Of a stretch of DNA of 36,507 nucleotides, positions 18,774 through 36,507 are shown in pieces; the stretch's first letter is position 1; each line of letters opens with the position of its first letter. The position numbers and the translations under genes are program-made. Source of the DNA: Porticoccaceae bacterium (lineage in GTDB: Bacteria > Pseudomonadota > Gammaproteobacteria > Pseudomonadales > Porticoccaceae); contig PABE01000034.1 in assembly GCA_002702725.1 (NCBI GenBank), forward strand, positions 1 through 36,507, written 5' to 3'. The notes beneath the pieces were generated by a model. The model had not been told where the DNA came from. It saw only the letters and a program-made list of their open reading frames with translations, and made no database searches.

Positions 18774-21347
18774 CTATGGGCAAATTGGCATCAGTGGGAT
18801 GCCGAGACATGAGTCGAATATATCACCAACTTCGTGATACGATAACCCATCCCCCTTTTCAACTGTGATTGTGCCAACGCTGTTGATTTCACCTATAGTA
18901 TTCACGTCAAAGAATGAATCTGATTCATAAAAACCTATTATATAATAATTTGGGATCGTGGCACTCATGTATCCGGGAGTATACATATTTGCCTGGTCAG
19001 CACACAAGGCCCTGTAAATTGAATCAACCGCTAGCGACCAGTTATCTTCGCCGACAAGATTCGGCGGGTTTGTTCTTGGATGAATGACTGGGTCCCCATT
19101 TGTAGTCGCGTTATGAACCTCAAGAAATTCTCCTGTCAAAGTGTAAGTCGCATTGCCTTCAAGGTGTAGAATCCCTGTGAAACTGACATCTATGGGATAG
19201 ATGCGCATATCGGCACAAAATCCGCTACTAGGTACATCTTCGATATGGGCAAATGAATACGGATAAAATCTAATCTCATTTGGCTCGACGATGGTAAACA
19301 CCACCGTCCTAGAGCAACCGTTCTTCGTCATTATCACTTCGTGAGTTCCGGCAGTGCTAGATGCCTGAAATGGGTAGTAGGAGCTGAGCGGGTAATGGTA
19401 TGTTTGGAATCCAGATTCATCTGTTACAGTGACATCCCACGTTACCGGATCTGTTGTTGTGATTGAAGAAAACTCCCCAACTCCGACTTTAGTGCGACTC
19501 TGATTAGCTGGTGTGCTTGCGAGATTCAATACTGTATATTCGAAGCTCGCAAACTTAATGCTTTTATTTTTGTCAATTGTAATTGTATTGCACTCTGGTT
19601 CGCTCCTGGATGTGTTGACCCGAAGCCGGAGATTCTCGCACGAGGATCCTGTCACAGAAACTTGGATAACCTTGGTGTCCGGAACTACCGAAGCAGAGCC
19701 CCGTTGTGTTGGCTGCCAGTCTCCATTGGCGTCCTGTACCTCGATAACCCATGGTGCAAATTCCCAGTCATGGTGAATGTTGCATTCCCGAGATTCCGAA
19801 CCACAATTCACACATTTCTTTTTATGACCGACCTGCCGGATTGGTTGGACTGTGAAAATAACAGTCTCGCCCGGGAGAGGTTGGGGATCGTCTACGTCAA
19901 TATTCCCGCCTGTAAGCGAACCCAGGGTCATGCACTCGTAGCACTCGTTCGGATCAAGATCATCGCAGCCAGGGCATCGCGAGCAATTTGTCCGTAGCTC
20001 GAGCCCGAGCAGATAGGGGATCACGCTCGGCGAGTTGTCCGGGCCGGCAGAGACGAAAATACAATCGTCCAAGCGGATGATGGCCCCGGCGGGCGCAATG
20101 TTCAAGCCGCTTGGGTGGCTTCCGAAGCCAGAAGCCCGACCACCGAATGAACGCAGCCGGTTGTCCTCCCAGAGGTCTTCAAAGATATTCGTAGTTGCGC
20201 CGTAATTCGAGAGCACCTGGCCAATGTCCGTGGCGTCGACGATGCCGTCTTTATTGATATCAGCCGCGGGCATCACGCCGGTCGCATTTGGTGATGTCCC
20301 GTACTGCCCAGTCGAGGCGGTCACGTCTGCGGTATCAACGACACCGTTCATATCGATGTCGCCGGGGTCGAGGAGTTGTGGAAGAGTCCCCTTGCTTCCG
20401 GCGAATGAACCATCCAATTCAAGGATGTCCGTCTCGAATTCGGACTTGGTCACCCCGTCTTCCGGGTCTGTGGTCGTGAGCGAGAGCACCTGGATGGTCG
20501 GGTTTGTCAGCCACCGGTTGGGGTGCATCGTGTCGATCTGCGCGGCGAACGTCCGCAGGCCCGTATCCCCGTTGCCGATCGTGTGGGCGGCGTCGACGAA
20601 ATCGAAGGTCGAGCTGGCGGTCGCGTCGCCGTGGTAGATGTAGATCTGGCCCTCGGCGCTCGTGCCGGCGAGACCGTCGGCGCGTGGGTCGGTGATCGCG
20701 ATATCCGCACGGCCGTCGCCGTTGATGTCCCCAAGCCCGAACACCCCAAAGCCGAAGTGTTCCGTCGCGGTGGCATCGGTGATCTCGGCGAGGATCGACC
20801 CATCCACACCCGAGAAGACGAACACAATGCCGTAGCCATCGTCAGTGGTGCCGTTGCCGAAGGTATCGACGGTCACCCATGCGGACGATGCGATGTCTGG
20901 CGTGCCGTCGCCGTTCCAGTCGCCGATGCCGGCCACGAAGCGACCGAGTGCGAGCTCGATGTACGGCCCCGGGATGGTGAGCAGGCTCGATCCGTCCTGT
21001 CCGCTGAAGACATGCACGCGGCCTTCCCACGCGTCGGCCGTTCCCCAGAGCGGCTCCCCCACTACGACATCATCGAACCCATCGCCGTTGATGTCGCCGG
21101 CGGACTCGCTGCTGTACCCAAAGAGCGTGTTGCTGTCCGGGGACACGATGGTCTGGATCGCGAGTTTCGAGGCACCGGACCACAGGCGAGAAGCGCCGCC
21201 CTGCGGATTGGTCTCGTCGTACCCCGTGATCGAGATCGGATAGTCGAGCGTCCCGTCGTCGTTGAAATCACGGGTGACCGGCTGAGCGGACACCGCCGTG
21301 CCCGCGACCGATGCGAAGAGGGCAGTCCATAGACAGAATCGATCCAT
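18774..21347 (-). CDS. Secreted FG-GAP/dockerin-like repeat protein with variable C-terminus
   Basis: The 857-residue protein has a signal peptide (MDRFCLWTALFASVAGTAVSA). It carries three FG-GAP (integrin-type) repeats with calcium loops (AGDINGDGFDDVVVG, IGDWNGDGTPDIA, LGDINGDGRADIAITD) and a dockerin-like pair (GDIDMNGVVDTADVTA...GQYG; ADINKDGIVDATDIG...SNYG) near residues 300-365. A Cys-rich segment follows (CSRCPGCDDLDPNECYEC; CVNCG), then Ig-like or beta domains (VGVGEFSSITTTDPVTW, TAGTHEVIMTKNGCS), ending YHEVGDIFDSCLG. Dockerin-like pairs of this kind are common in Planctomycetota. The 5' half is GC-rich and the 3' half AT-rich, suggesting a swapped C-terminus as in polymorphic secreted proteins. 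ATG 21347 has AAGGGG upstream. The frame's earlier start (21515) would overlap the rep gene. Confidence 0.8.
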   Translation of the reverse strand: MDRFCLWTALFASVAGTAVSAQPVTRDFNDDGTLDYPISITGYDETNPQGGASRLWSGASKLAIQTIVSPDSNTLFGYSSESAGDINGDGFDDVVVGEPLWGTADAWEGRVHVFSGQDGSSLLTIPGPYIELALGRFVAGIGDWNGDGTPDIASSAWVTVDTFGNGTTDDGYGIVFVFSGVDGSILAEITDATATEHFGFGVFGLGDINGDGRADIAITDPRADGLAGTSAEGQIYIYHGDATASSTFDFVDAAHTIGNGDTGLRTFAAQIDTMHPNRWLTNPTIQVLSLTTTDPEDGVTKSEFETDILELDGSFAGSKGTLPQLLDPGDIDMNGVVDTADVTASTGQYGTSPNATGVMPAADINKDGIVDATDIGQVLSNYGATTNIFEDLWEDNRLRSFGGRASGFGSHPSGLNIAPAGAIIRLDDCIFVSAGPDNSPSVIPYLLGLELRTNCSRCPGCDDLDPNECYECMTLGSLTGGNIDVDDPQPLPGETVIFTVQPIRQVGHKKKCVNCGSESRECNIHHDWEFAPWVIEVQDANGDWQPTQRGSASVVPDTKVIQVSVTGSSCENLRLRVNTSRSEPECNTITIDKNKSIKFASFEYTVLNLASTPANQSRTKVGVGEFSSITTTDPVTWDVTVTDESGFQTYHYPLSSYYPFQASSTAGTHEVIMTKNGCSRTVVFTIVEPNEIRFYPYSFAHIEDVPSSGFCADMRIYPIDVSFTGILHLEGNATYTLTGEFLEVHNATTNGDPVIHPRTNPPNLVGEDNWSLAVDSIYRALCADQANMYTPGYMSATIPNYYIIGFYESDSFFDVNTIGEINSVGTITVEKGDGLSYHEVGDIFDSCLGIPLMPICP

Positions 21348-21468
21348 CAGGTATTCCCCTTTCCACGCGGGCGTTCGTGCCCGAGGAGTAGATTCGCCTA
21401 GATTACCGGATACATGGATCCGGTGTTCATGTTTCAGAAGATTTATCGGATCGTGATCCGGGCACTGC

Positions 21469-23172
21469 TCACAAGTCGGCCTCGGCGTCGGTGTACCGCC
21501 ACCGCTCCAGGTCAATCAGATCAAGCTCGGCCCGGACGGCCTCGAACCGCTCCCTGTCCCACCCCTTCGCCCGCGCGATCGTGAACGCCCCCACGCCCCG
21601 GTGCTGTTTGGCGACGCGGATGCACGCGAGCACGACCTTCTGGTCCTGCGTGTACTCCGGCATCGCCTTCGGCCGGACCACCCCCCCACCGCCGTCGGGG
21701 TTGCTGGATGTTCTGACCGGCCTGCCGTTGAGGTGCTCGCGGAGCCTGCGGGCCGCCTCGTCCTCGTCGTGGAGCGTGATGAACGCCGTCTTCTGCTCGC
21801 GGATGAGCCAGTAGAACATCGCCCCGGGCCGCTTGCCCCGGTTCCTGGCCCGCTCGGCGAGCGCGAGGAAGTCCATCCGCCCCGACTCGCTCGCGTTGGC
21901 CAGCCCGATCACGCAGGCCTGGCGGTGGAGCTCGAGGAGCCGGTCGGTGTCGCGGAGATCGACGTCCCGGATGTCGCGGATGTTCGGCGGGGGCAGGCCC
22001 TCGGTGCGTGCCCGGCGATCGCTGACGGGCCGCCGGTCCCCTCCCCCACCGCCGCTCCGGCCACGGCGCCCTGGCCCGGATCGTCCGACCGTTCCCCTGC
22101 CCGGCTTCTTTTTCCTACTGCCCTGTTGAGCCCGCGGCGAAACACCAGCCGGTTCCCCCCGGCTCCGCCCGGGGGTGAGCTTTCTGGTATTTAGATCTCC
22201 CGTTAGGGAGAGAGATTCTGTTTGATCAGGGCTAGCAGATTCGCCGTCAAAATCGGCCGTTGGGGTAGCAGATTCACCGTCGCCCGCTCCGGACAACGGG
22301 AGCACCCCCCCCACCGCTCTCGCGTCTTCGGAGGCACCGCCGCGGCAACGGTCTGTTTCGTCGCCTCGGGCGTCGCTCTGCCAGGCGCTGTCCTCGTTCG
22401 CGGGCATGGCCCAATCGGTGTCGATCCGGTCGCGCAGCCCCCACCGGTTCATCTCCCACTGGGTGACGGGCATCGGTTGGATCCAGCCGAGCTCGATGAG
22501 CCGGGCCCGGGCGTCGGTCGCCCCGCGCCGGCTGATCCCGAAGTGCTCGGCGACCCAGGCGAGCGTGTACCGCCCGTCGATGCGGTAGTCCCCTCCCCCA
22601 CCGCCTTTGTCCTTGTGCCAGAAGAGCCCGCGGATGAGCAGCGCGTTGATGAGCGCCGTGACGTCCCTAGAGAACCCCGCCGCCAAGGCCCGCAGCATCC
22701 GCCGGGGCACGGGCACGCTGCGCCGGGCGTTGGGGATCTCGGCGAGCATTGCCCAGAATCCCGACATGTCGTCGACGCGGATCTGGTCGGCCGAGCGCGC
22801 GAACCTGATGCGGTGCTTGGAGACGGCGACGAGCCGGAGCCGCGCGAGGGCCTTCAGGTCGGCCCGCAGCTCACGGACCGCCCGGTCATGCCCCCGGCCC
22901 CCGACGAGCCGGACGATCTCAGCCATCGTGTAGAGCGGCCGGGCGTCGTCGTCGTCGGGCTCGAAGTACCGGCGCCGCTCCGCGAGCTCGTGGGCCGCGA
23001 AGTAGAGGCGGTACTGCCTCCGGGTCATATGGCCAGAACGGTACAGCCACCAGGCCAGCACCAGCTGATGGGTGGTGATGCGGCGGAAGCATCCCTCGAT
23101 GCGGTCGGTGCGTTCGCCGATCTTTGAGCGGGGCTTGACCCCCCCACTGCCGGGCTTGGGTTTGGTGTGCAT
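21469..23172 (-). CDS. Probable plasmid replication initiator (winged-helix)
   Basis: This 567-residue protein has no family that I recognise firmly, but its plan fits a replication initiator. An N-terminal region has WWLYRSGHMTRRQYRLYFAAHELAERR. Two helix-turn-helix or winged-helix-like segments follow (YTMAEIVRLVGGRGHDRAVRELRADL; YTLAWVAEHFGISRRGATDARARLIELGW). Then come a low-complexity Gly/Arg/Ser linker (about 270-385) and a C-terminal helical domain (MDFLALAERARNRGKRPGAMFYWLIR; YTQDQKVVLACIRVAKQHRG). It is divergent from parA, with the DnaA box and repeats between them. AAGGA lies upstream of ATG 23172. A replication role is inferred from position and DNA-binding folds. Confidence 0.6.
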   Translation of the reverse strand: MHTKPKPGSGGVKPRSKIGERTDRIEGCFRRITTHQLVLAWWLYRSGHMTRRQYRLYFAAHELAERRRYFEPDDDDARPLYTMAEIVRLVGGRGHDRAVRELRADLKALARLRLVAVSKHRIRFARSADQIRVDDMSGFWAMLAEIPNARRSVPVPRRMLRALAAGFSRDVTALINALLIRGLFWHKDKGGGGGDYRIDGRYTLAWVAEHFGISRRGATDARARLIELGWIQPMPVTQWEMNRWGLRDRIDTDWAMPANEDSAWQSDARGDETDRCRGGASEDARAVGGVLPLSGAGDGESATPTADFDGESASPDQTESLSLTGDLNTRKLTPGRSRGEPAGVSPRAQQGSRKKKPGRGTVGRSGPGRRGRSGGGGGDRRPVSDRRARTEGLPPPNIRDIRDVDLRDTDRLLELHRQACVIGLANASESGRMDFLALAERARNRGKRPGAMFYWLIREQKTAFITLHDEDEAARRLREHLNGRPVRTSSNPDGGGGVVRPKAMPEYTQDQKVVLACIRVAKQHRGVGAFTIARAKGWDRERFEAVRAELDLIDLERWRYTDAEADL

Positions 23173-28801: not shown

Positions 28802-31800
28802 ATGGCGATTCGAATAAAACGCAAACCACAGAAGCTGGGCACAGCCCATTGGCAGGATGACGCGGCGTTCGCCGCCTCGCACCCGTTCGAGTCCGGGAAG
28901 CTCTGGCTCGGTCGATCGCCCGAATCAGGAATCCCTGTGGGTTACGGGGACGACCGTCACGCGCTCGTTTGCTGCGGAACGCGGTCGGGCAAGGGCACCA
29001 CGGTCATCACGCCCAATGTCTGCCTCTGGCCGGGCTCGCTCGTTGTTGTCGATCCGAAAGGGGAGGTCGCCACGGTCGCTGCATCGCGGCGCGGCGAAGG
29101 ATCGGACTACTGCGTCGGCATGAATCAGAAGGTCTGCGTCGTCGATCCGTTCGGCGAGTCGGAGGTCGACGAGAAATACCGTGCGCGGTTCAACCCCCTC
29201 GATACGATCGACCCGGACGATCCGAACGCGGTCGCATATGCCGGCTCGATCGCCGAAGCGATGGTGATCATTCCCAAAGAATCGCACGAGCCGCATTTCG
29301 ATGAGCTAGCGAAGGATGTGATCGAAGCACTAATCCTCCATGTTCTTACGCACCCGCTGTACAAGGGGCGTCGCAACCTGGTGACTGTTCGCGACTTGAT
29401 TACGTGCGGAGATTTCGATTCGTTCGAGATCCTCCGTCGCGAAAACGGAGGGGACGAGCCCGCGATCGATTCCCACGCTCTGCTTTGGCAATGTGTTTCT
29501 GCGAACAGGAAGATCGCCGAAGTCGCACGGGTTGGATCGTCGATGCTCAGCATGTACCTGGCGAGCCAGAAGCAGTATTCGAGTGTCATGGCCTCGGCCT
29601 CGAGACACACGAAATTTCTGGGAACTCCGGCGATCGCCGAGAGCGTAGAGAAATCTGATTTCGCGCTCTCAGATCTGAAGACGGACCCGAGGGGTGTAAG
29701 CGTCTTTCTGACCATCCCCGATCGCTTCTATGCGTCCCACAAGCGTTGGCTGCGGATGATGCTCGTGCTGATCTCGAACGAGATGACGCGGAGCAAGAGG
29801 AAACCGGTGTGCGGGAGCCGGGTACTGATGGTGATCGACGAGTTCGCGGGCCTCGAACGGCTCGAAACGATGGAGCACAACATCTCGAAACTCGGTGGTG
29901 CGCACGTCACCATGATGTTCATCGTTCAGACACTGTCGCAACTCCGAGATATCTACAAAGACTTCTGGGAGACGTTTTTCAGCCAGTGCGGGACCCGCGT
30001 CTTCTTCAGCATCGACGACCTATTCACGAGGAACTATCTCTCGGAGTTCATCGGGGACACCGAGATACGGCCCATCCTCGAATCGATGAGCGAATCGGCC
30101 GGGCACAGCAAGGGGAGGACTGACGGGAACTCGGAGTCGAACGCCGTTTCGAACACGAAGACCACGAGTGAGACGAAGACGCATACGGATAGTACCGGTG
30201 AGAATGTCTCGACAACGATGGGAAGGAACAGCCAGCGGACCATCGGGACGCACAGCGCATCGGGGGAATCGCACCAGCGGGGATACAACGAGGGCCGCAG
30301 CGAGCAGAGCGGCTGGAATACGTCCACGAACCAGCAACGCAACTGGAGTAAAAACTCGAATTGGGGAAGCCAAGAGGGTACTGGGAAGAACGCCACATAC
30401 AACCAATGGCCGATCTTTCGCTGTGTTCCGAAGGCGATCCCGTTCATTCGCAAGGAGGAGAAAGCATCTCTGAGCAAGAACACGTCGTCGAACAAGGGGG
30501 GCGGCCAGAGCAGGGGAGGCGCAGAGGGAAGCAGCGAGGGCCAGTCGGGGAGCATCAGCCGCAACACCTCGATCGTGAGCAACATCGGTCACACGATCAG
30601 CACTGGCACGAATGAGAGCAACTCAGAGGGAGAGAACTACAGCCATGCGATTGGCCGGAACACCAGCTCCAGCGACGCGGTCTCTCGCGGGATTTCGCTG
30701 GCGGAAGCGATAACCAGGACCTACACCACGAACACCTCTGAAACGGTGACGGACACGGTGACCCAGACCGCGACGCGTTCCGAGAGCGTGCACAAGCGGC
30801 GTCTGATCACGGGTGATGAAATCGGTGAACAGTTCGATCGCGGGGAGGATGGCCGGCCGGCCGATGCCTTGGTATTGATTGGTGGGGGGCGGCCGATCAC
30901 GGTGAGGCGCACACCGTATTTCTCAGACGAGGTCTTCGGCTGGCTGTATGACCCGCACCCCGATCACGCGGAGCCACCGAAGCTCATCGGCGCGGTCCCG
31001 ATCCCGCTGCCGCCTGCCGTTGAACAATCCGTCGGCCTGTCCAGCATCCGATGGCTCAACCGCCAAGGCGACCGCGTGACACGCGGCCGTTCGCTCATCA
31101 GTCTCAGGTTCGAGGCACCCAGCACATGGGTCGACATGAACCACGTGCAACAGGGTGTGACCGGCGAGATGCCGAGTTTCGGGGGGACACCGGCCCACAT
31201 GATCGCCGGAGTCGATCTGACGGTTTTGTCGCCAGCGAGCGGCACGCTCCTCGAGTGCGGCGAAGGAACGAAGAGCTACGCAGCGATCAGATGCAACCGG
31301 CGGAAGCACTGGGAAGAGACGAAGAAGATCAGGCTGGAATGCGTGGTCGAGGAATACAACCGGTTCTGCGACAAACTTAGAGAACTCGAACGGGACGGTA
31401 TCGAGCGAGAAAGATTCGCGCGGGAAGAGACCGAGCGACGGAGGCGCGAGGAAGAGCGAAAAGCGGATGAGCGGAGACGTCTGGATCGAGAAGAAAGAGA
31501 GCAGTTCCGTGAAGAGCAGCGCCAACGGGATGTGGCCGAGGTTCTCGCAGCCTCGAAGGAACGCTACATCACGGGGAGCCCACCTTGGTGGGCCGATGCC
31601 GAAGGCGTCCAACTTCTTGGCTTTTGGGTCTCACTTTTTGGATCAGGTGCGCTGAGTTCCCAGTTTGTCTCGATATTCACTATTCAGGAACCAACAACCC
31701 GGCTCATGCTATTCGGGATCCCGTGCGCATTCGGTACCGTTACTGGCTGGCTGTTTTTCCGATGGCTCAGCAGGAAACTGCAGTCGCGCTATAGAGACCA

Positions 31801-31879
31801 GCGGCGTTCGGAGTGGAGCCGGATGAATCTCAAAGAGCGGCTCGATTATTCGGGGAAGGGATACCTCTACCGCTCGTAG
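28802..31879 (+). CDS. Type IV coupling protein (VirD4/TraG-like), unusual topology
   Basis: The 1025-residue protein has a Walker A GTRSGKGTT (59-67), then PNVCLWPGSLVVVDPKGE, and Walker B VLMVIDEF (341-348), as in VirD4/TraG proteins that pump relaxase-bound DNA into a transfer channel. Its N-terminus has no membrane helix. After FSIDDLFTRNYLSEF comes a Ser/Asn/Thr/Gly-rich insert (428-660), then the C-terminal TraG segment (KRRLITGDEIGEQF...). A lipoyl/biotinyl-like barrel follows (WLNRQGDRVTRGRSLISL...LSPASGTLLECGEG, 750-822), then a Glu/Arg-rich coiled coil (855-920). Two membrane helices follow near 935-957 and 967-988. Normal members have two N-terminal helices. The plasmid has no other type IV secretion genes. 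Confidence 0.88.
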   Translation: MAIRIKRKPQKLGTAHWQDDAAFAASHPFESGKLWLGRSPESGIPVGYGDDRHALVCCGTRSGKGTTVITPNVCLWPGSLVVVDPKGEVATVAASRRGEGSDYCVGMNQKVCVVDPFGESEVDEKYRARFNPLDTIDPDDPNAVAYAGSIAEAMVIIPKESHEPHFDELAKDVIEALILHVLTHPLYKGRRNLVTVRDLITCGDFDSFEILRRENGGDEPAIDSHALLWQCVSANRKIAEVARVGSSMLSMYLASQKQYSSVMASASRHTKFLGTPAIAESVEKSDFALSDLKTDPRGVSVFLTIPDRFYASHKRWLRMMLVLISNEMTRSKRKPVCGSRVLMVIDEFAGLERLETMEHNISKLGGAHVTMMFIVQTLSQLRDIYKDFWETFFSQCGTRVFFSIDDLFTRNYLSEFIGDTEIRPILESMSESAGHSKGRTDGNSESNAVSNTKTTSETKTHTDSTGENVSTTMGRNSQRTIGTHSASGESHQRGYNEGRSEQSGWNTSTNQQRNWSKNSNWGSQEGTGKNATYNQWPIFRCVPKAIPFIRKEEKASLSKNTSSNKGGGQSRGGAEGSSEGQSGSISRNTSIVSNIGHTISTGTNESNSEGENYSHAIGRNTSSSDAVSRGISLAEAITRTYTTNTSETVTDTVTQTATRSESVHKRRLITGDEIGEQFDRGEDGRPADALVLIGGGRPITVRRTPYFSDEVFGWLYDPHPDHAEPPKLIGAVPIPLPPAVEQSVGLSSIRWLNRQGDRVTRGRSLISLRFEAPSTWVDMNHVQQGVTGEMPSFGGTPAHMIAGVDLTVLSPASGTLLECGEGTKSYAAIRCNRRKHWEETKKIRLECVVEEYNRFCDKLRELERDGIERERFAREETERRRREEERKADERRRLDREEREQFREEQRQRDVAEVLAASKERYITGSPPWWADAEGVQLLGFWVSLFGSGALSSQFVSIFTIQEPTTRLMLFGIPCAFGTVTGWLFFRWLSRKLQSRYRDQRRSEWSRMNLKERLDYSGKGYLYRS

Positions 31880-32271: not shown

Positions 32272-33693
32272 TTAGTGCTCGAGCTCGTCGCGATCACGTT
32301 CATTTTGGCGATCGGTACTCCGATCGAAAGCGGCTTTCTTCCTGAGATACAAATCCATCAGACCGCGGAGCTCGCTGCTGGCGTCGTTCGACTGTGACTT
32401 TGCTGCCGCTGCACCACCGGGAGCCTTGGTACCGATCACCTTTGTGGGCTGTTCGTACGCGATTTTCCTGTCTCGAATCCGAGATTTCCAATCGGTACGG
32501 TTCGCCGCGTCTTCCATTGCGTGCCGGAAGACCAAACTGTGACGCGCAGTGTCGAATACCGCGCGGCTCTCGGCCAATCGTTCCTTCGCAGAGTTCTTGA
32601 TCGGTGCCGTTGCGGCACGCTCGTCACGAAGGCGTCGCCCGAGGATCTTCTTCTCGGCCGCGTCGTGTGTCCGCTTCAGCGCGTCGACCCGGTTCCCATC
32701 GCTCGAAATCGCGTTGTACGCATCAGTGAGAGCGGACTTCCGGTCCTCGGCCGAGAAGATCTTCCGCACATCGACGACACGCAAGACGTTCCGGGCCCGG
32801 CCCGCGATCGACCGGTCACGCTTCACGAAGTCTTTGAGCTCCTTGGACTGCGCTCGGTAGAGATCCTCGAGCACGCCCCGGTACTCGTCGCGGATCTCCT
32901 GGACCGCATGACGAGCCGCTTGCTTCGCTTCGGCCCGGATCGATCGCTCCGCGTCGCGTTGTGACGAGAGCAGGGTGTTCCACTCAGCGGCGTGCCGCTC
33001 ACGCAGACGGCGTGTCTCCCGTCCGAGCCGGGCATCGAGTTCACGCTGTGTCTTCACTGTCTTCTCGTGCTCCGGCCGGCCCTTATGCCCCGATTCGAGC
33101 TCGTGGGTGTGCCGCGGCCGGTCCTTCTTCCCGCGCGTGTACTCGCTGCGGTCGCGGGCCTTCCAGTTGTGCTCACGCTGCTCACACAGGACCTCGCCGT
33201 TCTGCTTCTCGAGATCGAGGGCCCACTTCGAGAGCCGGAGCTTCTCCTTCGACGAGCTCAGCATCCGCCCGTCCTCGGCCGAGACACGGTTGATGACCAG
33301 GTGCACATGCGGCTGCTCCTCGTCGTTGTGGGCCACGATGATCGCCTGGCGGTCCTCAGCCCCGAGCGCCCGGATGGCCCCATCGGCGGCGCTCAGCATC
33401 GCCTCCTTGGTCAGCCCAGAGGATTCCTCGGGGTGCCAGGCGAGCGTGACGTGCATGGCGACCTGGGCGGACTTCCGTCCGGTGTTCTTGATGCCGGCCC
33501 GGGCCTTCAGCTCGGATGCCCGCATTGCCGTCGCCGCCATCACCCGCCATGCGACATGCCCGTTCTGGGTGGCGAGGTTGCGGGTCCGGACCCATTCGAC
33601 GCGTTCGGTCGTGCTCGCCCGACCTTTGTCATGCAGTACGTAGTTGGCGAGACCCCTGAAGCTGGTGCCGCGCGGATGGATTTTGGGGACCAT
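32272..33693 (-). CDS. mobA: Relaxase/mobilization nuclease (VirD2-type domain)
   Basis: The 473-residue protein begins MVPKIHPRGTSFRGLANYVLHD. The candidate catalytic Tyr is Y18 in LANYVL. The metal-binding histidine motif is H122-N-D-E-E-Q-P-H129-V-H131-L-V-I-N135. It nicks oriT, stays linked to the 5' end, and is delivered through the coupling protein. Residues 190-470 are charged coiled coil and helical, a common C-terminal tail (ELKDFVKRDRSIAGRARN, AERSIRAEAKQAARHAVQEIRDEY). It starts within the mobC stop (one-base overlap) and is translationally coupled to it. No primase domain is fused. The full length and motifs indicate it is functional. Confidence 0.9.
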   Translation of the reverse strand: MVPKIHPRGTSFRGLANYVLHDKGRASTTERVEWVRTRNLATQNGHVAWRVMAATAMRASELKARAGIKNTGRKSAQVAMHVTLAWHPEESSGLTKEAMLSAADGAIRALGAEDRQAIIVAHNDEEQPHVHLVINRVSAEDGRMLSSSKEKLRLSKWALDLEKQNGEVLCEQREHNWKARDRSEYTRGKKDRPRHTHELESGHKGRPEHEKTVKTQRELDARLGRETRRLRERHAAEWNTLLSSQRDAERSIRAEAKQAARHAVQEIRDEYRGVLEDLYRAQSKELKDFVKRDRSIAGRARNVLRVVDVRKIFSAEDRKSALTDAYNAISSDGNRVDALKRTHDAAEKKILGRRLRDERAATAPIKNSAKERLAESRAVFDTARHSLVFRHAMEDAANRTDWKSRIRDRKIAYEQPTKVIGTKAPGGAAAAKSQSNDASSELRGLMDLYLRKKAAFDRSTDRQNERDRDELEH

Positions 33694-34037
33694 CAGTCGT
33701 CCCCCTCATCCAGCAACAGGCGTTCGAGGATCTCGCCCACCCGCTGAGCCAACGCCTCCCACTGGTCTGTGAACCGGCTCCCCCGGTGCACCGCCCGGGC
33801 CAGCTGGTTGACGTTGTTCCCCAGGGCGTTGAGCTCCCCGATCAGCCTGGGATCCGCGCCGCGGCGGCCGGTCCCCGCGGGGACGACGTACCCGACCGCC
33901 CGACGCCGGATGTACTCGGCGACATCGAGACCCGCCGCGTCCGCCTGAGCGCGGACGTGGTTCATCTCGGCGATCGTGAAGCGGAGATTGTGCCGCTCGG
34001 TCCGCTTCTCGTCGGGGTGTTTCTCCGGTCGTCCCAT
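33693..34037 (-). CDS. mobC: MobC-like relaxosome accessory protein
   Basis: The 114-residue protein begins MGRPEKHPDEKRTERHNLRFTIAEM, a ribbon-helix-helix-like DNA-binding start. It continues with AGLDVAEYIRRRAVGYVVP and NALGNNVNQLARAVHRG, the diagnostic motif of MobC proteins (LNxxGxNxNQLA). These bind oriT and help relaxase access the nic site. It is immediately upstream of the relaxase gene on the same strand. Its own 5' flank holds the array of hairpins, the expected place for oriT. Confidence 0.88.
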   Translation of the reverse strand: MGRPEKHPDEKRTERHNLRFTIAEMNHVRAQADAAGLDVAEYIRRRAVGYVVPAGTGRRGADPRLIGELNALGNNVNQLARAVHRGSRFTDQWEALAQRVGEILERLLLDEGDD

Positions 34038-34073
34038 GCCGTCTCGTCGGTTCCTTCTCGTTCAGTTTCGCAT

Positions 34074-34350
34074 CCAAGGGCGGTACCTTGGCCGGGATGC
34101 AACGCCGGGCCCGAAGGGCAGACGTTGCTCGTGATGGAGCGCCGAAACGCTCCTCGGGATGCACCGGACGAACCCGGTGCTCGATGGTCCGGGAGAGCGA
34201 AATCTCCCGGTGCGGCCCCGGGTGCACAACCCGGGCCATGGGGGTGCAGGGGGAGCTCGGAGGCTCCCATCTGCTCGCGATCCAACGGCGAACCGTTGGC
34301 CAGACCCGCGGAGCGGGCCCCGGAGGGGTAGTTTTTGGGGCACCAAAAAC
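34074..34350. repeat. Series of about ten short hairpins upstream of mobC (oriT or structured RNA)
   Basis: Stems (left arm; right arm) lie at 34074-34079; 34086-34091, 34099-34104; 34123-34128 (with an inner GCCC-GAA-GGGC), 34136-34141; 34148-34153, 34161-34167; 34174-34180, 34189-34196; 34203-34210, 34217-34223; 34229-34235, 34251-34256; 34263-34268, 34282-34288; 34293-34299, 34305-34309; 34313-34317 and 34331-34338; 34343-34350. All stems are perfectly paired but differ in sequence. Five loops contain CGAA (CCGAAA, ACGAAC, GCGAAA, CGAA and C-GAA-G). Linkers repeat a CTCG...GATG pattern. No convincing gene spans the stretch. It may contain oriT or encode a structured RNA. Confidence 0.65.
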
Positions 34351-34451
34351 ACATCTGGCTATTCTCCGTCCGCGTCTATACGACAAACGCCGCCCCGGGT
34401 TCAAGATCGGAGCGCGAATGTGTACGGTTGTGTGTCTTCGTGCGCCGCCGG

Positions 34452-35150
34452 TCAGGTCAGGCTCGACCACCGCCCGAGGGTCACCAGCGGTTCATCGAGG
34501 CTCGTTTTCGGGTCCCCCGCCGTCCAACGGCAGGCGGGCAGCCGGTACTGCGCCGGGTCGTCCAGGGGCAGGTAGGGGAGGTGGCAAGACAACAGCGTCA
34601 TCCCCGAGTCCGCCGTCGAGAACGTGTGCACCACGCCCCGCGTGAACACGAACACGTCCCGCTCCCGGGCGGCGACGGTCCGGACATCCGAGCCGTCGAA
34701 TCGCTCCACGGTCTTGTCCGAGCAGTGGAAGAAGCCGCGGCCCTCGAGGACGACGATCAGCCGATCGGAGGTCTCGTGGGTGTGCATCGGGAGGTCGTTG
34801 GCTCCCGCCTTCCAGTGAAGCTTGGCGACGCCGGCGGTCTCCGTCTTGCCGAGGAGCTCGGAGCCCAGCCAGGCGGCGCCGCCGACGTGCTCGGAGCCCT
34901 CGAACGGGTACCGGAGTTCGACGGGGTGATCCCGTTCCAGGATCCCGGCGAGTTCCGCGAACGACACGCCCGGGCCGGTCCCCCGGACCGTGCCCATCGC
35001 CGCGACGCGGCGATCGGGGCAACCCCGGCGGATCTCGTCGAAAGTTGTGTGCGCCGAGGCGAGCAGGGCGCTCAGCACGTCCCGACCGGTGGCCGGGCGG
35101 CAGTGGGGGAGGGTGAGCGGGGCGGTAGGAAGAGGAACGGGGCGAGGCAC
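34452..35150 (-). CDS. Cupin-domain protein
   Basis: The 232-residue protein has a C-terminal cupin barrel. It contains P-M-H-T-H-E-T-S-D-R-L-I-V-V-L-E-G-R-G-F-F, with metal-ligand-like His/His/Glu, then RDVFVFTRGVVHTFSTADSG, the second cupin motif with His. GTG at 35150 is the likely start, with GAGGAG six bases upstream. The open frame continues to 35333 but would run across the operators and the divergent regulator gene. Cupins bind small molecules or catalyse oxygenation and isomerisation. The substrate is not predictable. It is divergent from an XRE regulator and shares its operators, so they probably form one regulated unit. Confidence 0.75.
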   Translation of the reverse strand: MPRPVPLPTAPLTLPHCRPATGRDVLSALLASAHTTFDEIRRGCPDRRVAAMGTVRGTGPGVSFAELAGILERDHPVELRYPFEGSEHVGGAAWLGSELLGKTETAGVAKLHWKAGANDLPMHTHETSDRLIVVLEGRGFFHCSDKTVERFDGSDVRTVAARERDVFVFTRGVVHTFSTADSGMTLLSCHLPYLPLDDPAQYRLPACRWTAGDPKTSLDEPLVTLGRWSSLT

Positions 35151-36087: not shown

Positions 36088-36507
36088 ATGGCGCTCGATG
36101 TCTACCAGGCCGTGACGGATCGGATCCTCGAGCTCCTCGAGCGAGGGACCGTCCCGTGGCGTCACCCGATCCGATCTGCGGGCGGGCAAGGCCAATACCC
36201 CACGAACCTCGCATCCAAGCGGGCCTACCGCGGCATCAACGTCTTCCTGCTCGCTGTGACCGCCTGGGCCGAGGGGTACGGCTCGCCCTATTGGCTCACG
36301 TTCCGGCAGACCAAGGAGCGGGGCGGGCACGTCCGCAAGGGCGAGAAGGGGACGCTCGTCATCTTCTGGAAGCAGCACGCGACCCAGGACAAGAAGACCG
36401 GCGAGGACATCACCGTCCCGGTCCTCCGGCACTACACCGTGTTCAACACCGAGCAGTGCGAGGATCTCCGTCTGCCCGATGAGCCTGTCGATGAATCCGA
36501 GGCCGAG
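36088..36507 (+). CDS. ardC: ArdC antirestriction protein, N-terminal part (continues at base 1)
   Basis: The first 140 residues begin MALDVYQAVTDRILELLERG, then TVPWRHPIRSAG, YPTNLASKRAYRGINVFLL, GYGSPYWLTFRQTKERGGHVRKGEKGT, and RHYTVFNTEQCEDL. This is the single-stranded-DNA-binding N-terminal domain (DUF1738) of ArdC. The frame is open to the last base and continues in phase with base 1, where the C-terminal metallopeptidase-like domain lies. The complete protein would be 290 residues, normal for ArdC. The protein protects incoming plasmid DNA against type I restriction. Confidence 0.9.
   Translation, partial: MALDVYQAVTDRILELLERGTVPWRHPIRSAGGQGQYPTNLASKRAYRGINVFLLAVTAWAEGYGSPYWLTFRQTKERGGHVRKGEKGTLVIFWKQHATQDKKTGEDITVPVLRHYTVFNTEQCEDLRLPDEPVDESEAE

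Follow-up and report, generated by a model that had tools for sequence, protein, structure and literature searches.

Genes at the locus

The window, by which we mean the whole stretch of 36,507 nucleotides analysed here, is one contig (C75) in a Porticoccaceae genome of 3.56 Mb and 165 contigs. On its minus strand, mobC (33693..34037) encodes a NikA-like/MobC protein (Pfam PF21983, E=2.9e-18; PF05713, E=3e-7) and is directly followed, on the same strand, by a gene for a relaxase with a MobA/VirD2 nuclease domain of MOBP type (32272..33693; PF03432, E=5.9e-22). The window also holds a coupling protein gene on the plus strand (28802-31879) and the start of an ardC-type anti-restriction gene (36088-36507), recognised by its N-terminal ArdcN domain (E=1.4e-38) and cut by the contig end. 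Upstream of mobC, about ten small hairpin units form an array between this gene and an inverted repeat belonging to an origin of transfer (oriT); this array is the subject of the study.

Among plasmid records, the nearest relatives of the window's mobC and relaxase are found on the planctomycete plasmids pPla86_1 and pPla133_1 (Pla86 and Pla133 below), both typed MOBP. These plasmid-borne relatives lead us to regard the window as an element that is mobilizable or conjugative. Its ends share no exact repeat of 20-300 bases. Searches for MobC gave a match in the window's own genome only among 58 relatives, short matches at 8 loci in viral contigs and 2 loci in genome contigs; neither the alignment of the window relaxase nor the MobC of the planctomycete genome G563 found a match in the viral contigs. 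The contig of the transfer genes also encodes a 913-aa protein (18774-21515) that contains FG-GAP repeats and, below the cutoff, a dockerin-like stretch.

A row of short paired units upstream of mobC

A preliminary description of this DNA had reported about ten perfectly paired short stems upstream of mobC, and shuffle controls confirm them. When non-overlapping perfect stems with loops of 3-8 nt were counted in 34074-34350 and in 1000 dinucleotide shuffles, we obtained 9 stems of at least 5 bp against 2.1 ± 1.3 (maximum 8), 8 of at least 6 bp against 0.68 ± 0.79 (maximum 4), and 5 of at least 7 bp against 0.2 (maximum 3). Throughout the rest of the window, scanned in 277-base stretches every 10 bases that ended before 34000 or started after 34400, no stretch contained more than 4 stems of the 6-bp class. 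The fold z-score of 34060-34360 was -4.9 for the plus strand as RNA and again -4.9 for the plus strand as DNA, while the minus strand as RNA reached -2.9 (34030-34360).

Read on the plus strand and starting closest to mobC, the row begins with CCAAGG gcggta CCTTGG (34074..34091), a perfect stem whose CCAAGG(G) also stands closest to mobC in Labrenzia, Pelagovum and Roseivivax unnamed6. It is followed by a compound unit recognised by eye (34099..34128), in which an outer stem GCAACG/CGTTGC (34099-34104/34123-34128) encloses an inner GCCC gaa GGGC (34109-34112/34116-34119), and which is present in the minus-strand fold too. Next come three further units from the perfect-stem count, namely GGAGCG ccgaaa CGCTCC (34136..34153), whose GGAGCG/CGCTCC unit occurs in Labrenzia too, GCACCGG acgaac CCGGTGC (34161..34180), and CCGGGAGA gcgaaa TCTCCCGG (34189..34210). 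The unit CCCGGGT gcaca ACCCGGG, together with a conserved CCATG (34217..34240), is compensated across the window, Pla86 and Labrenzia. Two more perfect-stem units lie beyond it: a nested one (34246..34274), with outer GCAG/CTGC and inner GGGAGC tcggag GCTCCC, has an identical inner loop in Pla86 and Labrenzia, and CCAACGG cgaa CCGTTGG (34282..34299) is identical in stem and linker in Pla86 and has a Labrenzia counterpart with one compensated change. A 5-bp hairpin, CCCGC gga GCGGG, follows at 34305..34317.

The recurring CGAA that had been noticed in half of the loops is indeed there on the plus strand (in 4 of 8 loops and also inside the compound unit, in its inner loop), and so is the CTCG-GATG theme, with (C)TCGn(n)GAT(G) recurring in several linkers. 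The stem-loop at 34331-34350 (GTTTTTGG/CCAAAAAC), earlier counted as one of the units, is instead part of the oriT core.

The oriT core and its predicted nick

On the plus strand the core reads GTTTTTGG ggca CCAAAAAC, then ACATCTGGCTA. The inverted repeat, a perfect 8-bp stem (34331..34350) that also lies in the core recovered by BLAST, is followed on its 3' side by a nic-like sequence, ACATCTGG^CTA (34351..34361), assigned by its position and its likeness to the MOBP consensus. Furthermore, the arm GCCAGA (34299..34304) pairs with TCTGGC (34354-34359) to give a basal stem that encloses the inverted repeat. Of 26 loci examined, 23 had a recognisable core, and 18 of these cores possess such a basal arm of 5-7 bp; 200 shuffled controls averaged 5.7 and never exceeded 12. 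Some of the loci counted are close relatives, and the arm of one locus (L077), 73 nt away, is probably chance. Its variants are compensated, occurring as CCAGA/TCTGG, CAAGA/TCTTG, CGAGA/TCTCG and CAAGC/GCTTG.

A query of 1.1 kb found nothing among plasmids at E 1e-5, and the shared core was reached with a shorter one, allowing E up to 10. BLAST of the core matched Pla86 and Pla133 (E 5e-4) and Sphingobium (E 4e-5 and 1e-4), and there were weak matches to Bacteroides plasmids, pBF9343 among them (E 3); in pBF9343 and in Sphingobium pl6 the match stops roughly 70-85 bases before mobC. Cores with altered letters stand before mobC in Agrobacterium, Nitrosospira, Roseivivax, Pelagovum and Shinella, as well as in the planctomycete genomes G446, G069 and G1124. 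An 18-mer allowed up to 2 mismatches was found in 43 of 398 genomes. Only G446, G069 and the genome of the window carry it beside a MobC match; the remaining genome matches are probably chance. The exact 16-mer AGCCAGATGTGTTTTT occurred at 23 loci in viral contigs; these lack the inverted repeat, appear fortuitous and were set aside.

According to the portion of PMC3772185 used here, the MOBP nick consensus is (C/T)ATCCTG(C/T), and RP4-like systems carry an inverted repeat 5' of the nick sequence, with cleavage within or at the 3' end of ATCCTG. By analogy with this repeat-nick arrangement, the nick is predicted to fall on the plus strand between 34358 and 34359. The hexamer departs from the consensus, being ATCTGG in the window rather than ATCCTG; in pBF9343 it is ATCTTG, and both resemble the consensus hexamer while neither equals it. 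We file the site as an MOBP-type oriT by position and anatomy, with the nick hexamer as a near-match only: it adjoins genes for a MobA/VirD2-type relaxase and auxiliary protein (PF03432, PF21983, PF05713), and its inverted repeat lies directly 5' of a nic-like sequence, an arrangement common to other mobC loci. Leading regions carry anti-restriction genes, and the ardC side of this oriT is the side predicted to enter the recipient first. The earlier suggestion of an elaborate oriT stands as far as position goes, an MOBP-type core being located at the distal end of the array (34299-34361); for the array itself, a role in the origin is a proposal, to which we return below.

Between the last unit and the inverted repeat, at about 34317-34335, the plus strand carries the terminator-like hairpin CCCC gga GGGG (stem 34318..34328) followed by TAGTTTTT, of which 0.3 would be expected; the T run of this site doubles as the left arm of the oriT inverted repeat. 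Labrenzia has a terminator-like site on the corresponding strand as well (L106 794-777), with about one expected by chance.

Recurrence of the array in other plasmids and genomes

Besides the window, long arrays precede mobC in pPla86_1, pPla133_1, Labrenzia p1BIR, Sphingopyxis pSREG01 and Frigidibacter pcai42B, and likewise in the planctomycete genomes G563 and G1124 (L155), with a weaker case in G938 (L132). Short arrays, with 2-4 units after the core, occur in Sphingobium pl6, Roseivivax unnamed6 and Pelagovum. The array-bearing records thereby span two phyla, with planctomycete and alphaproteobacterial members. Several mobC loci, in Agrobacterium, Nitrosospira, Phaeobacter and Shinella, have a similar core but no long array, and since several plasmids do with the core and without such an array, the array is, as judged from these loci, an optional elaboration of the oriT-mobC interval that would not be essential to transfer in general. 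The array also seems separable from any one particular core, because that of G563 is accompanied by a different inverted repeat; there, a relaxase domain follows mobC, and a profile of the window-type relaxase finds nothing.

In a cluster scan for units combining loop and linker, Labrenzia (7), the window (5) and Pla86/Pla133 (4) came out on top, although a GC-rich Rhodovastum locus without an array (L120) also scored 4. Fold energies of the relatives were less pronounced, with a z-score of only -2.0 for a 620-base region of Pla86 as DNA (1 of 20 shuffles as good), and of -1.0 and -1.7 for the two-unit array of Sphingobium. A segment pattern made of CTCCGA, CATGG and TGYGC had one match in the window's own genome, which is the array itself, and none in viral contigs.

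In Pla86 and Pla133 the arrays are annotated as hypothetical genes (L011 3647-3973 and L069 2831-3406). These annotations lie on opposite strands and consequently do not speak for coding; the genes are probably spurious.

Compensatory changes and complementarity of loops and linkers

A hairpin preceded by CATGG and closed by a TGYGC loop is common to the window, Pla86 and Labrenzia. Across these three sequences all 21 of 21 cells are standard pairs and 6 of the 7 pairs are changed on both sides, a degree of compensation reached in 4 of 500 shuffles. A MAFFT alignment of the 87-100-base array segment misplaced the row of the window, and covariation was assessed by permutation.

Variable stems with constant loops and linkers, as the array had been described at first, do not quite capture its organisation: what tends to hold over several arrays is a mutual complementarity of loop and linker, unit by unit. 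The rule was noticed in seven arrays, where an unusual loop matches the unusual linker of its own unit, for instance GTTT-AAAC in Labrenzia, TCTG-CAGA in Pelagovum, TAGCC-GGC in Sphingobium and AACCG-CGG in Roseivivax. Over 42 units, the complementarity between each loop and its downstream linker summed to 127, against 104.1 ± 4.5 with permuted linkers (p=5e-5), and permuting linkers within arrays also gave p=5e-5; the upstream linker yielded no signal (p=0.42). The 19 loops without TCG gave p=3e-4, whereas the 18 loops with TCG showed none on their own (p=0.13), as is expected because both of their partners are nearly constant.

Because the rule had been found on the first arrays, it was then tested on four later ones (Sphingopyxis, Frigidibacter, G1124 and G938), which were chosen as hairpin arrays and read by eye. 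Here, too, loops matched their downstream linkers (p=0.022 for 18 units, and 0.015 for 22 units when wobble stems were added), and upstream linkers did not (p=0.95 and 0.54, respectively). Taking all 11 arrays together, a second stem of 3-5 bp could be formed in 44 of 61 units (17 had none); it lay within 1 nt of the 3' arm of the first stem in 37 of these 44, and the connecting linker measured 2-5 nt in every one of the 44, although 0-7 was allowed. A permutation with this geometry fixed gave p=2e-5 over the 61 units. As the second stem recurs at 2-5 nt with such permutation support, the units appear to be pseudoknot-like, their loops tending to pair with their own downstream linkers. The same covariation may also be read as hairpins that alternate, or as contacts between units.

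The compensated homologous stem, the arrays before mobC in two phyla and the loop-linker covariation together bear out the proposal of selection on structure. It is most improbable that the array represents GC-rich intergenic hairpins without selected function, of which high G+C does yield some (as in the array-free locus with 4 units in the cluster scan), given the shuffle controls of the window stems, the AT-richer array of G563, the compensatory changes and the replication of the loop-linker rule in later arrays.

The strand that probably folds

Stems with a single non-Watson-Crick pair offer a way to distinguish the two strands. Those on the mobC strand mostly contain A.C, which is G.T on the opposite (plus) strand. 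We counted such pairs in 11 arrays, in stems outside the perfect units, against 600 shuffles. In stems of at least 7 bp, A.C occurred 11 times versus 4.5 expected (no shuffle as high) and G.T 4 times versus 3.3; in stems of at least 8 bp, A.C occurred 7 times versus 1.2 (1 of 600 as high) and G.T not at all versus 0.9. The difference of A.C minus G.T was reached in 12 of 600 and 0 of 600 shuffles, respectively. Four of the A.C stems come from Sphingopyxis and look related, and without that plasmid A.C falls to 7 versus 3.9 (at least 7 bp) and 3 versus 1.1 (at least 8 bp), the difference being reached in 41 and 32 of 600 shuffles and the A.C excess itself in 61 and 63. In 7 of 7 arrays the raw RNA fold energy was lower for the plus strand, but this advantage does not survive correction by shuffling, RNA fold z-scores of these seven favouring neither strand consistently.

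In a pseudoknot of the TYMV type, a short loop crosses the deep groove of the longer stem. By analogy, the connecting loop of 2-5 nt would cross the deep groove if the plus strand folds, in agreement with the wobble data, and would run along the other groove of the 5-8 bp stem if the mobC strand does. In our judgement, the folding strand is probably the plus strand, antisense to mobC, with wobble support that leans on one plasmid.

A possible role in the transferred strand, and its alternatives

We tentatively propose that the array is a structured arm of the MOBP-type oriT that would act in the single-stranded transferred DNA, a reading to which we give somewhat less than an even chance. Of the other functions first suggested, a single-strand origin would be compatible with this reading, and an undescribed structured RNA may apply under the RNA alternatives below. 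Each unit would consist of a 5-8 bp stem whose loop, in most cases, also pairs with the adjoining linker, resulting in tandem compact pseudoknots. The plus strand, the one most likely selected to fold, would also be the nicked and transferred strand, and since the array lies 5' of the inverted repeat on this presumed transferred strand, it would leave the donor close to the end of transfer. While single-stranded during transfer, the stretch could fold into a rod of units and function as DNA. In one version it would be a site of priming, single-strand initiation or loading from which the T-strand is converted into duplex; in the other, relaxosome proteins would dock on the array close to the terminal end that holds nic and the inverted repeat. 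Computed support comes from the hairpin excess, the recurrence with compensatory change, the loop-linker covariation and the position beside a shared oriT core; what we infer is where nic lies, which strand folds, that the array acts as DNA and not as RNA, and what it does biochemically.

This DNA role is ranked first, ahead of a leader RNA of mobC and, third, a trans-acting or antisense RNA, because the strand that appears to fold is the presumed transferred strand and because sso/Frpo-type elements provide precedents. The sso of rolling-circle plasmids tends to lie 5' of the nick. Moreover, as described in the excerpts of PMC7690428 and PMC5714925 on which we draw, Frpo and ssi structures act in single-stranded plasmid DNA. 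A bolder form of the proposal, which we regard as doubtful, would make the array one example of a so far undescribed class of oriT elements, namely fast-evolving tandem mini-pseudoknots on the transferred strand that work as folded ssDNA in conjugation; as part of the same doubtful reading, their sequences would be free to change as long as stem and loop-linker pairing is kept, and they would be spread among MOBP-type modules of Planctomycetota and Alphaproteobacteria.

The closest competitor, unlikely in our estimate though deserving serious attention, holds that the mobC-relaxase mRNA carries the array as a structured 5' leader, which controls translation or decay of this message. The array is directly upstream of the mobC start, and the mobC strand would carry UUCG-type loops. 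Pla86 and Sphingobium have promoter-like sites upstream of the core and directed toward mobC (TTGACG-18-TAGAGT, 0.1 expected, and TTGATT-18-TATTAT, 0.4 expected), so that in these two relatives the array would sit in the mobC leader. By eye, the window has a weaker pair (TTGAAC 34404-34399 and TATAGA 34380-34375), but no promoter rises above threshold in 33900-34600, and the only promoter-like site of Labrenzia is inside the core. The wobble-type pairs, furthermore, fit the opposite strand, more weakly once Sphingopyxis is left out, and by the geometry rules of RNA pseudoknots a bridge of 2-5 nt along a stem of 5-8 bp, as the mobC strand would require, is tight.

Alternatively, the array could encode a trans-acting or antisense RNA needed for transfer, comparable to the sgm-sRNA of SGI1. 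This is rather improbable, even if the place between oriT and the first mobilization gene is the same and, at the oriT end of the array, a hairpin resembling a terminator and followed by a T run is present on the plus strand, the one that the wobble pairs favour. Against it, no promoter-like site was detected on the plus strand in 33900-34600, SGI1 relies on unrelated tyrosine-recombinase-like proteins, and there is no match in Rfam.

Finally, duplex binding sites are disfavoured, as are chance hairpins. NikA-type proteins bind inverted repeats, and the stems might accordingly be double-stranded palindromic sites for MobC or a regulator, or else cruciforms, with single-strand folding incidental. 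The MobC of RA3, as reported in the part of PMC4175270 considered here, binds an imperfect palindrome at its own promoter. We nonetheless judge such sites very unlikely, for the stem sequences vary from unit to unit and from plasmid to plasmid while pairing persists, the opposite of a sequence-specific site, and loop-linker covariation would not be expected.

Relation to known elements

Rfam 15 gave no match in the window at gathering score, and five related loci yielded none with E up to 1. The proposed arm of oriT is easiest to compare with the MOBP-type origins of RP4, VirD2 and IncU RA3, which likewise have an inverted repeat 5' of a nic-like sequence, located before auxiliary and relaxase genes. 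In the descriptions of RP4 and RA3 considered here, however, one to several inverted repeats are found at this place, in contrast to the chain of about ten units seen here. With sso, ssi and Frpo the array has in common that these are structures in single-stranded plasmid DNA, but no repeated pseudoknot-like units are described in the sections of PMC7690428 and PMC5714925 concerned.

In SGI1, the sgm-sRNA is encoded between mpsA and oriT and is essential for transfer, with a core that excludes oriT, as stated in the passages of PMC9299015 that we cite. In both cases the interval from oriT to the first mobilization gene holds a structured element; that of SGI1 is an RNA, whereas ours is known from sequence alone, and the evidence favours the strand antisense to mobC. 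SGI1-type (tyrosine-recombinase-like) mobilization proteins are absent beside the array, where relaxase and MobC belong to other Pfam families. The RNAs of type III toxin-antitoxin systems (ToxI) are made of tandem units able to form H-type pseudoknots and are in this respect similar, but they repeat one sequence beside a toxin gene, unlike the differing stems beside mobC.

In the open-access literature searched, by titles and abstract openings, we found no description of such an array beside oriT, and the open-access search returned no paper on tandem pseudoknots with plasmid conjugation or on multiple stem-loops at a conjugative oriT; a single listed paper, on pCTX-M3, matched oriT and relaxase together with a pseudoknot. 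Within that literature, the array is thus an apparently undescribed elaboration of an MOBP-type oriT.

What recurs beside similar transfer genes in distantly related bacteria is the shape of the array more than its sequence, and the origin of transfer of some plasmids may include a large folded structure. If the array does fold in the transferred strand, structure in ssDNA would be part of what defines some transfer origins, and searches for oriT by sequence would miss such parts. It would also offer a testable handle on T-strand priming, protection or termination, and on conjugation in Planctomycetota, for which the literature search showed no oriT paper by title. If, instead, it acts as RNA, it would join sgm-sRNA as another structured RNA linked to the mobilization of plasmids.

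Other structured arrangements were seen upstream of mobC. The mobC locus of G859 (L152, about 2030-2360) has an upstream row of longer stems of up to 11 bp, in a style unlike that of the window array. A recurrent motif on the oriT side, a CAAGGGGG-like hairpin ending in CCCC(C)GTTGCATCCC, lies near the core at L073, L107, L121, L123, L128 and L130, upstream of mobC in planctomycete, gamma-, beta- and alphaproteobacterial and Desulfosarcina loci.
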